Origin: a virus
DNA length: 45,106 bases
Strand: one strand, 5' to 3'
Virus record (IMG/VR): IMGVR_UViG_3300023174_000277
Span: 1-45,106 of that record
The notes under the pieces are model-generated. The model was not told the origin of the DNA and made no database searches. It worked only from the letters and a program-made list of their open reading frames with translations. Shown piece by piece: positions 39,853 to 44,129 of the stretch (position 1 is the first letter of the stretch; every line of letters starts with the position of its first letter). The position numbers and the translations under genes are program-made.

Positions 39853-40011
39853 ATGATTGTATGTATTTGTAGAAATATTAAAACTTCAGAATACACTTCT
39901 GAAGAAGAAGTAAAGAATCGTATTATGCAAAACGATTTTGTTTGTGGTTTATGCCAATTACAATACTTAAATAATCAAGAAATTAAAGAAGAAGATAAAA
40001 CAACTTCTTGA
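39853..40011 (+). CDS. Bfd-like [2Fe-2S] mini-protein
   Basis: 52 aa from ATG 39853. Four Cys in the order of bacterioferritin-associated ferredoxin: C4-x-C6 ('IVCICRNI') and C31-x-x-C34 ('VCGLC'), with a helical linker between. Bfd has 31-32 residues between the pairs; here there are 24, so the linker helix is shorter. Bfd-type domains bind a [2Fe-2S] cluster and donate electrons, in bacterioferritin for iron release. With rubrerythrin in the same island, an iron/peroxide redox role is plausible. Confidence 0.65.
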   Translation: MIVCICRNIKTSEYTSEEEVKNRIMQNDFVCGLCQLQYLNNQEIKEEDKTTS

Positions 40012-40034
40012 CATTACTTTAAAGGCATATTAAA

Positions 40035-40166
40035 ATGAAAGTTAAAGAACTAATTAAAAATCTTTATATTGCAATTCGTGAAGGCAATAAGGAATTGCAA
40101 AAGAAGCTTTATGAGCAAATTACAAAAAAGAGTTTAAAGAAGAAGAAAACTCAAGCTGTTCAATAA
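40035..40166 (+). CDS. Small basic helical protein
   Basis: 43 aa, ATG 40035, with weak AAAGG 12 nt upstream. Lys-rich (14 of 43) amphipathic helix 'LIKNLYIAIREGNKELQKKLYEQI' followed by a basic tail 'KKSLKKKKTQ'. Nucleic-acid or ribosome association would be possible. It ends just upstream of the tmRNA acceptor piece. Coding status moderately supported. Confidence 0.45.
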   Translation: MKVKELIKNLYIAIREGNKELQKKLYEQITKKSLKKKKTQAVQ

Positions 40167-40183
40167 GATAAATATTAGTATTG

Positions 40184-40428
40184 CTGTATGAAGTAGAAGG
40201 AAAGGTGTTCTGGACGCGGGTTCGATTCCCGCCATCTCCAAAACAGGGGGGGATGTCAAGGTTTCGACAGGGCAATGAGTACAGATATGGACAGCCCGTC
40301 AGGCGATCGACGTAAATGAAGCAAAACTAGTAAATGCAAATGATAGCAATTACACCTTGGCTCTTGCTGCTTAAACAGTAAGAATACGGAGTTTTGGTAC
40401 TTTTTCTTGGCAACAGAAAAAAGTACCA
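40184..40428 (+). ncRNA. ssrA: Circularly permuted (two-piece) tmRNA
   Basis: The 3' (acceptor) piece precedes the 5' (coding) piece. Acceptor piece: P2 strand CTGTAT (40184-40189), 'TGGAC', T-stem GCGGG/CCCGC with loop TTCGATT (40216-40232), then CATCTCC (40233-40239) and discriminator A 40240; CCA is not encoded. An 8-nt linker (40241-40248) leads to the coding piece: GGGGATG (40249-40255) pairs with CATCTCC, keeping the G3-U pair that alanyl-tRNA synthetase recognises. Then 'GGTTTCGACAGGG', P2 strand GTACAG (40279-40284), and a tag frame from GCA 40336 to TAA 40372-40374 coding ANDSNYTLALAA. A hairpin TGGTAC.../...GTACCA (40395-40428) ends it. It rescues stalled ribosomes and tags products for ClpXP-type proteolysis. 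Outer ends are approximate. Confidence 0.92.
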
Positions 40429-40449: not shown

Positions 40450-40563
40450 ATGTTTGATGCAATTTTTTGGTTTATAGTTGGTGCATTAGTTGGTTGGAAT
40501 TTACCACAACCAGTTTGGGCTAAAGATTTAGTAGAAAAAGTTAAGTCAGTATTAGTAAAGTAA
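40450..40563 (+). CDS. Very small membrane protein
   Basis: 37 aa, ATG 40450 with AGGAG 10 nt upstream. 'AIFWFIVGALVGWNLPQPVWA' is a single membrane span with a Gly-x3-Gly packing motif; the short C-terminus is basic ('KDLVEKVKSVLVK'). Ends directly at a late promoter and hairpin. Unknown function. Confidence 0.6.
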   Translation: MFDAIFWFIVGALVGWNLPQPVWAKDLVEKVKSVLVK

Positions 40564-40571
40564 TATAAATA
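40564..40571 (+). promoter_or_regulatory. T4-type late promoter (TATAAATA) for hsp20
   Basis: Exact octamer immediately after the stop of the small membrane protein, 82 nt before the Hsp20 ATG. Confidence 0.65.
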
Positions 40572-40599
40572 ATTATACCAACATGGTGTTGGTATAATT
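40571..40599 (+). terminator. Long perfect hairpin upstream of hsp20
   Basis: 13-bp perfect stem AATTATACCAACA / TGTTGGTATAATT with a 3-nt loop, then TATTTG. It could terminate upstream transcripts. A late transcript starting about 10 nt after the TATAAATA box would begin inside it and so not form it, giving a possible switch. Confidence 0.55.
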
Positions 40600-42011: not shown

Positions 42012-42100
42012 ATAAGTGTATTGCTAGTATTAAACTAAATGAAAAGAAGTTTGAAACTTTTGTGACTATTATTAAGGAATATTATAATGAAGCTCAATAA
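42008..42100 (+). CDS. Possible 30-aa peptide with TTG start
   Basis: TTG 42008 overlaps the previous stop (TTGA) with GAAGG 7 nt upstream; the 30-residue frame is Lys/Glu-rich and helical ('KFETFVTIIKEYYNEAQ') and runs 14 nt into the protease gene. Could be a coupling peptide for the next gene or chance. Confidence 0.3.
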   Translation: MNKCIASIKLNEKKFETFVTIIKEYYNEAQ

Positions 42101-44129
42101 ACTTTTTATTGCTATTACTGCCGCATTTTCTACTTCGGCATATGCTGCAGGAACTACCTCAGCAGTTGAAAAATCATTCTCTGTATCAGCATATTCAATT
42201 GGTGTACAATCAGCTTATACACTAAATGCTACCGGCTCTGGTATCCGTGTTGGTGTTATTGACACTGGTCTTACTGATTTTACTAAGCAACTTACTGGTA
42301 GGATTTATGCTCCATATGACGTAACAACTAAAAGTAGTGATGTTACTGATAAGTTACTTCACGGCACAAAGGTTGTTGGTATTATTGGTGCAGCTATGGA
42401 TGGTGTTGGTATTTCTGGAGTTGCTCCAGATGTAACAATTATTCCAGTTAAGGTATTTTCTCCTTCGGGTCTTGCTACAAATCAAAATATTTTTGATGGT
42501 GTTAATTATGCACTTCAAAACGGCGCACGGATTATTAATTTATCATTAGAATCTGTTGGAACAACTGCTCCTGATACATATGTTCGTCAAGCAGTAAATT
42601 CAAATGCATTAGTTGTTATTGCTGCAGGAAATAATGGATTAACTAATCCTTCTGCTGTTGCGTCATTTGCAAATCAAACTTGGGCAAATGGCCAAGTAAT
42701 TGTTGTTGGTGCAGTTGATTCAAATAACACAATTATGTCATGGTCAAATAAGGCAGGTGCACAAAAGAATTTTTATCTAGTTGCACCTGGTAATAATGTA
42801 ATTACTACTTGTACAACTGGATATTGTTTTGGTACAGGCACTTCATTTGCTGCACCATTTGTTTCAGGTGCAGCTGCATCAGTGATGAGTAATTGGAAGT
42901 ATTTAACTGCTAATCAAACCGCAGATATTCTATTTAAGACTGCAACTGATCTAGGCGCACCGGGCACAGATGAAGTATATGGCCGCGGTATGGTTAACCT
43001 TGCTAAGGCATTACAACCAATTGGTGATCTTAAGGTTGTAACTGGAACATCATCTTCTCCATCATCAGTTAAAGTTGCAAGTATTTCTACTGCAGTTAGT
43101 CCAGCACTAATGAATAGCCTTAGTACACAACAAATTAAAGTATCAGCATTTGATGATTATGGCCGAAATTATAATGTAAATCTATCAAATAGTTTCCATT
43201 CATATCGATCAACATATACACAAAAGATGTTCTCATCAAATGATATCATTGATTCAAATGGATTCAGTGTAGGTAATATTAAGTTTAATTCTGTGTCTTC
43301 ATATAATGCTGAAACAAAATCAACAAATATTCTTGCTGCATCACTAATTCAAAGTAATGATAACTCAACTTATGCAATGGGTTTTGGTGGAACATCTAAT
43401 CAGTTTTTTGGACTAAATATGCCAATGCTATCTGAAGTTACATCAAATTCATACGTTTCAAATTTGATCCCAAATCATTCTTATATGGGTTATTCGTATA
43501 ATCTTAATGGTGCTAACTTTAAGATTGGATATGTAACAACTGCAGCATCAAATGTTCCAAATGCACAATCAAATGCTATCATGACAGAAATTGCATATAA
43601 GATGGATAATCTAAATACAGTATTTAGCTATGCTCAACTAAATGAATCTGGTGCACTTGGTAGCACTGGAAATATTTTTGGTAATACTGCAACATCAACA
43701 TATGGTATTTCAACTGCATATAATCTAAATGATTATACATTTGCTGCTAATTATGGGATTGGGTATAGTACTGGAAATAATTCAAATATTCTATCAGTTT
43801 CAGATGTAAAAACAGTAACTTGGGGTTTGGGTGTAGCTAAGTCAAAGATTATGTCTGATTTTGATTCAGTATCATTTTCAGTATATCAACCAATGGCAGT
43901 CACATCTGGTAACTTTAATGTAAATGCTAGTGTAGGTGTAACAGATAATGGAACACCAATTGTGCAAAATCGTTCATATAATCTAAGTACATTTGCTCCA
44001 GTAAATACTGAACTTAAATATACAAATCGATTAACTGATGCTTCAAATCTAACCGTAAGTTTAATTAATCAACAATCATCGGGTTTTACTGATAAGGCCG
44101 CTGTTGTTAAGTATAATCTAAAGTTTTAA
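42087..44129 (+). CDS. Secreted subtilisin-family (S8) autotransporter-like protease
   Basis: 680 aa. Residues 1-20 are a classic signal peptide (Lys-rich start, 'LFIAITAAFSTSAYA'), cleavage likely after Ala20. The S8 domain spans about 50-315: Asp59 in 'GVIDTGL', His92 in 'LLHGTKVVGII', oxyanion Asn182 in 'AAGNNG', Ser253 in 'GTGTSFAAPFVSG'. All catalytic residues are intact. Residues about 330-680 are Ser/Asn/Thr-rich with regular alternating strands and end in 'VVKYNLKF', a terminal aromatic as in outer-membrane barrels, so an autotransporter-type translocator is likely. It would be exported by host Sec and placed at the cell surface. Very unusual beside T4 replication genes; a host-derived gene is likely. 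Function (surface shaving, superinfection exclusion, release) is inference. Confidence 0.85.
   Translation: MKLNKLFIAITAAFSTSAYAAGTTSAVEKSFSVSAYSIGVQSAYTLNATGSGIRVGVIDTGLTDFTKQLTGRIYAPYDVTTKSSDVTDKLLHGTKVVGIIGAAMDGVGISGVAPDVTIIPVKVFSPSGLATNQNIFDGVNYALQNGARIINLSLESVGTTAPDTYVRQAVNSNALVVIAAGNNGLTNPSAVASFANQTWANGQVIVVGAVDSNNTIMSWSNKAGAQKNFYLVAPGNNVITTCTTGYCFGTGTSFAAPFVSGAAASVMSNWKYLTANQTADILFKTATDLGAPGTDEVYGRGMVNLAKALQPIGDLKVVTGTSSSPSSVKVASISTAVSPALMNSLSTQQIKVSAFDDYGRNYNVNLSNSFHSYRSTYTQKMFSSNDIIDSNGFSVGNIKFNSVSSYNAETKSTNILAASLIQSNDNSTYAMGFGGTSNQFFGLNMPMLSEVTSNSYVSNLIPNHSYMGYSYNLNGANFKIGYVTTAASNVPNAQSNAIMTEIAYKMDNLNTVFSYAQLNESGALGSTGNIFGNTATSTYGISTAYNLNDYTFAANYGIGYSTGNNSNILSVSDVKTVTWGLGVAKSKIMSDFDSVSFSVYQPMAVTSGNFNVNASVGVTDNGTPIVQNRSYNLSTFAPVNTELKYTNRLTDASNLTVSLINQQSSGFTDKAAVVKYNLKF

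Follow-up and report, generated by a model that had tools for sequence, protein, structure and literature searches.

The window, i.e. the whole 45,106-nucleotide stretch of DNA that we analysed, carries a permuted (two-piece) tmRNA of a T4-like bacterial virus. tmRNAs free stalled ribosomes and tag unfinished proteins. We estimate a probability of roughly 85% that this gene is a functional, phage-owned and circularly permuted ssrA that would be transcribed late from a NATAAATA promoter box, processed by the host, charged and used in ribosome rescue with tagging. This reading builds on the observed anatomy, family membership, P2 covariation, tag constraint and conserved locus of the gene.

Identity and anatomy of the permuted tmRNA

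With ARAGORN, a single gene was called in the window, a permuted tmRNA (tmRNA*) with the tag ANDSNYTLALAA. RF04321, which is Rfam's merged permuted-tmRNA model, matches at full length (model 1–213, window 40182–40374) with 136.4 bits (cut-off 47, E-value 9e-27). A first-pass annotation had proposed a permuted tmRNA at this position and is thus confirmed by both programs. The alpha_tmRNA (RF01849) and beta_tmRNA (RF01850) models that it suggested for comparison also score above their cut-offs, with 64.5 bits (cut-off 50) and 96.2 bits (cut-off 84), respectively. These matches far exceed chance expectation. The model of the one-piece tmRNA in standard order (RF00023) gave only two hits, both partial (26 and 25 bits) and below its cut-off of 47. 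The beta model outscores the alpha model, yet the 3' hairpin contains the alpha-type GGCAACAGAA; as both models pass, the Rfam class is ambiguous as a lineage marker.

The acceptor half precedes the coding half, in the permuted order that had been described before, and the pairings P1 and P2 join the two halves (Table 1). The acceptor stem consists of seven pairs, and the alanine-identity G3-U pair reported in the first pass can be read in the sequence as G40251-U40237. The constancy of this pair and of the acceptor bases among relatives is partly fixed by the search pattern and is not independent evidence. Concerning the boundaries, the proposed 3' end (40428) coincides with the end of the terminal hairpin, whereas the proposed 5' end (40184) should be extended to take in 40183 or a few bases more.

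Table 1. Features of the permuted tmRNA locus in window coordinates.
Feature	Position	Strand	Basis and remarks
T4-type late-promoter box GATAAATA (NATAAATA motif)	40167–40174	+	sequence; 8 nt before P2; putative promoter activity
T-arm/acceptor half	40183–40240	+	upstream of coding half
P2 5' strand GCTGT	40183–40187	+	covariation; close to the 5' end of the acceptor piece
T-arm GCGGG TTCGATT CCCGC	40216–40232	+	RF04321 alignment; pairs kept in 20/20 sequences
3' acceptor strand CATCTCC (40233–40239) and discriminator A40240	40233–40240	+	sequence, RF04321 alignment; no CCA after
Linker (intervening sequence) AAACAGGG, 8 nt	40241–40248	+	sequence; presumably excised; 70 nt with CCA and hairpin in L233
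Coding half	40249–40374	+	downstream of acceptor half
5' acceptor strand GGGGATG	40249–40255	+	sequence, RF04321 alignment; G3 (40251) opposite U40237
P2 3' strand ACAGC	40291–40295	+	covariation
Tag reading frame ANDSNYTLALAA (40336–40371) and stop (40372–40374)	40336–40374	+	ARAGORN; comparison with L233 indicates purifying selection
Hairpin around tag stop codon (TCTTGCTG / CAGTAAGA)	40362–40383	+	fold; hairpin of different sequence at same place in L233
Terminal hairpin with GGCAACAGAA in loop region	40395–40428	+	fold; GGCAACAGAA also in L233 and alpha_tmRNA consensus

P2 had been assigned to the strands GTACAG (40279–40284) and CTGTAT (40184–40189). To compare pairings, we aligned 18 viral and two bacterial permuted tmRNAs (n=20), each with its acceptor half joined to its coding half; this alignment was built by sequence and fitted to neither structure. 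In these 20 sequences, GTACAG/CTGTAT is paired in 57.5% of cells, barely over shuffles. GCTGT/ACAGC is instead paired in 94.2% of cells, including the outer position, whose columns were picked after viewing the alignment; it shows 25 double-sided changes compared to 7.8 in shuffles, and the signal is lost on sliding by one column. We thus conclude that P2 is formed by GCTGT and ACAGC. Its one extra outer position is unpaired in the window.

The genomic context agrees with the earlier description of a T4-like phage. The portal, major head, scaffold, sheath, clamp and clamp loader proteins match phage families so named, and the best match of the portal to an isolate is Methylophilales phage Melnitz (59%). 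The window further encodes a 680-aa protein with a subtilase (Peptidase_S8) domain (42087–44129). SmpB was not found among the proteins searched; the source record is a 45-kb virus fragment. When searching bacterial genomes for the host with a near-exact tmRNA pattern, no match was found. A BLAST search of the tmRNA in 398 genomes from a single phylum gave as its top match the Accumulibacter genome used as centre, and this match covers the conserved tRNA-like part only.

Linker and tag in a syntenic ortholog

We identified a syntenic ortholog of the window tmRNA on an 11-kb IMG/VR contig (3300022752_004856; locus L233). Both loci have the same gene order, with ORFs of 56, 86, 52 and 43 aa, the tmRNA and then Hsp20. 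The L233 tmRNA scores 109 bits with RF04321, which is over the cut-off, and was missed by ARAGORN. Its linker is 70 nt long, begins with CCA and forms a long hairpin (−23.2 kcal/mol, z −4.9), whereas the window linker has 8 nt without an encoded CCA, as the first-pass annotation had read it. L233 also differs in having an additional stretch between P2 and the tag and in lacking a 37-aa ORF ahead of Hsp20. This ORF, which has a weak match to phrog_20849, lies in the window between the tmRNA and Hsp20 (40450–40599) together with a TATAAATA box and a terminator-like hairpin, all absent in L233. The shared 52-aa ORF (39853–40011 in the window) starts with MIVCICRNIK, has a CGLC motif later and resembles a small ferredoxin of the Bfd kind; it has no Pfam or PHROG match.

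L088, L114 and L091, the relatives that rank next in similarity, also have long linkers with CCA, and because of this a deletion in the window lineage is the likeliest direction of change; the window linker has thus probably collapsed. The first-pass annotation had implied that the short linker is peculiar, which is not supported by the comparison with other loci. Linkers of 4–8 nt occur in 38 of 90 distinct viral permuted loci, 31 of the 38 without CCA, and linkers of at most 8 nt in 37 of 57 loci of the bacterial sample, every one with CCA, where both samples are biased by search patterns that limited linker length and the proportions are indicative only. The bacterial sample, which is rich in Rhodocyclaceae, has mostly 7-nt linkers, with CCA. 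Linkers of 4–8 nt are frequent among the viral loci sampled, and we rejected the linker as an unusual feature; in phages, 8-nt linkers that lack CCA are clearly no rarity.

The window tag ends in LALAA, as noted before, and this end is hydrophobic and of the degradation type. Compared to the L233 tag (ANDSNYDLALAA), it has nine base changes that result in one residue change (T to D), so that 11 of 12 residues are kept. In a simple random-substitution simulation of these two sequences, the p-value for this constraint is about 3e-5, which indicates that the tag stayed under purifying selection. The stop-codon hairpin and the terminal GGCAACAGAA hairpin are common to both loci, with changed stem bases.

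These comparisons bear on the possibility that the gene is a decaying remnant, in which the deletion of CCA and linker hairpin and the altered promoter box reflect a loss of function. Relative to L233, the linker is indeed shortened and the first base of the late box is non-consensus; however, acceptor stem, T-arm and P2 are intact, the 3' hairpins are retained and short linkers without CCA are common among other phage copies. The purifying selection on the tag also argues against decay, though the comparison with L233 cannot date it to after the deletion. We consider decay unlikely. The phage RNA could also be a decoy or inhibitor that competes for SmpB, ribosomes or synthetase with the tmRNA of the host and thereby blocks rescue, and PMC11915505 mentions a tag-less tmRNA form of phage DS6A as an inhibitor of the endogenous E. 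coli tmRNA; a decoy would need no tag, whereas a conserved frame ending in LALAA is present here, and we regard this role as very unlikely. That the phage carries host DNA, i.e. an ssrA copy from an integration-site scar or a misassembly, is hardly credible: although ssrA is a common integration site and acquisition via a prophage has been raised (PMC9004378), a complete gene is present, it is flanked by phage genes, and the independent contig of L233 has it at the same place, which largely refutes this origin.

A late-promoter box ahead of the acceptor half

In L233, a TATAAATA box is found at the same place as the window box, 8 nt before P2; the window box is one base off TATAAATA, at its first position. 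NATAAATA has been reported as the late-promoter motif of the T4-like cyanophage S-PM2 and of cyanomyoviruses (PMC2984593). Among the 90 viral loci, which form 41 rough clusters, seven have NATAAATA 40–59 nt before the T-arm, and none of the other 20-nt bins, taken up to 400 nt upstream, has it in more than two clusters; the clustering is crude and counts the window and L233 separately although they are orthologs. TAAATA alone shows the same peak. In T4, late transcription starts a few bases downstream of the box, and therefore the transcript would begin near the P2 strand at loci of this kind, including the window and L233. The position of the box thus suggests late expression with a start near the mature 5' end, which is a correlation and not a proof. 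Early read-through from a sigma70-like TTGACA-17-TAAAAT in the window (40008–40036) is possible.

Like the window region, Melnitz (L427, MZ577097) has an upstream box, with TATAAATA located 58 nt before the T-arm and overlapping a sigma70-like TTGACA-17-TATAAA. In this TTGACA-17-TATAAATA arrangement directly 5' of the tmRNA (45977–46010), the −10 element of a sigma70-like promoter doubles as a late box; the authors of the Melnitz study describe only an early promoter for its tmRNA (PMC9004378). In six other loci (L140, L149, L177, L127, L195 and L208), whose tags are GEQVELAMAA-like, ATATTTATA, i.e. the late box on the opposite strand, is present at a constant position ahead of the acceptor half.

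A tentative generalization, which we would not yet favour, is that the permuted tmRNA is a late gene in several T4-like phages, where the late promoter abuts P2 and transcription initiation itself defines where the acceptor piece begins. In this reading, some phage copies would also have lost both the hairpin of the linker and the CCA, giving a streamlined maturation for late, not early, ribosome rescue.

Proposed function and comparison with known phage tmRNAs

For expression timing, processing, charging and rescue, we infer the following from established tmRNA biology. The precursor is probably transcribed late from the NATAAATA box, with the RNA starting a few bases ahead of the P2 strand. 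With so short a loop and no encoded CCA, the precursor would need further enzymes to mature: host tRNA-processing enzymes would cut out the 8-nt loop and the host CCA-adding enzyme would complete the acceptor piece, and both steps would be equally necessary in many short-linker relatives. Alanyl-tRNA synthetase would charge the RNA via the G3-U pair, while P1 and P2 would hold both pieces together. During infection, the tmRNA would act with host SmpB to rescue ribosomes that have stalled on broken mRNAs, and it would add ANDSNYTLALAA to the stalled products, leading to their degradation by host proteases.

Two-piece tmRNAs of phages have already been published, many of them in aquatic phages, and the window adds another member at a conserved locus. 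Of 133 distinct phage tmRNAs counted previously, 53 were two-piece, 50 of these from marine or aquatic samples (PMC9004378), and a further study comprised 79 phage tmRNA sequences and introduced RF04321 (PMC11915505). New here are the comparison of linker and tag with L233 and the late box 8 nt before P2. The ortholog pair appears to capture the collapse of the linker and the loss of the encoded CCA, and the spacing of the late promoter makes the timing of phage trans-translation testable and differs from the early role proposed for Melnitz.

The Melnitz tmRNA (tag ANDNYVPVDYALAA), which has been proposed to keep hijacked translation going or to tag host proteins (PMC9004378), is likewise a permuted ssrA of a T4-like aquatic phage. 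The putative roles named in the first-pass annotation, ribosome recycling and redirected tagging, resemble these earlier proposals. In contrast to the window, it is located elsewhere in the genome, before the late-transcription coactivator, has a long linker with encoded CCA and has been described as alphaproteobacterial type with a glutamine riboswitch (PMC9004378). Permuted tmRNAs with AND-type tags (ANDDSFAPMAIAA and ANDNVFGAKTLAA) and tRNA-like halves similar to those of the window are also present, unannotated in the records, in Stenotrophomonas phage DLP6 (L429, 1976–2319) and Acinetobacter phage BUCT628 (L430, 1478–1811); their linkers differ, with 34 and 29 nt, respectively, and CCA at the start, and the late box is absent from the 120 nt upstream of both. 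The cyanophages S-CAM1 and S-SSM7 resemble the window in their permuted ssrA and 5-nt linkers without CCA, whereas they have long AANNIVAFSR-type tags and no late box at that place, and S-CAM1 has a sigma70-like sequence upstream of the tmRNA.
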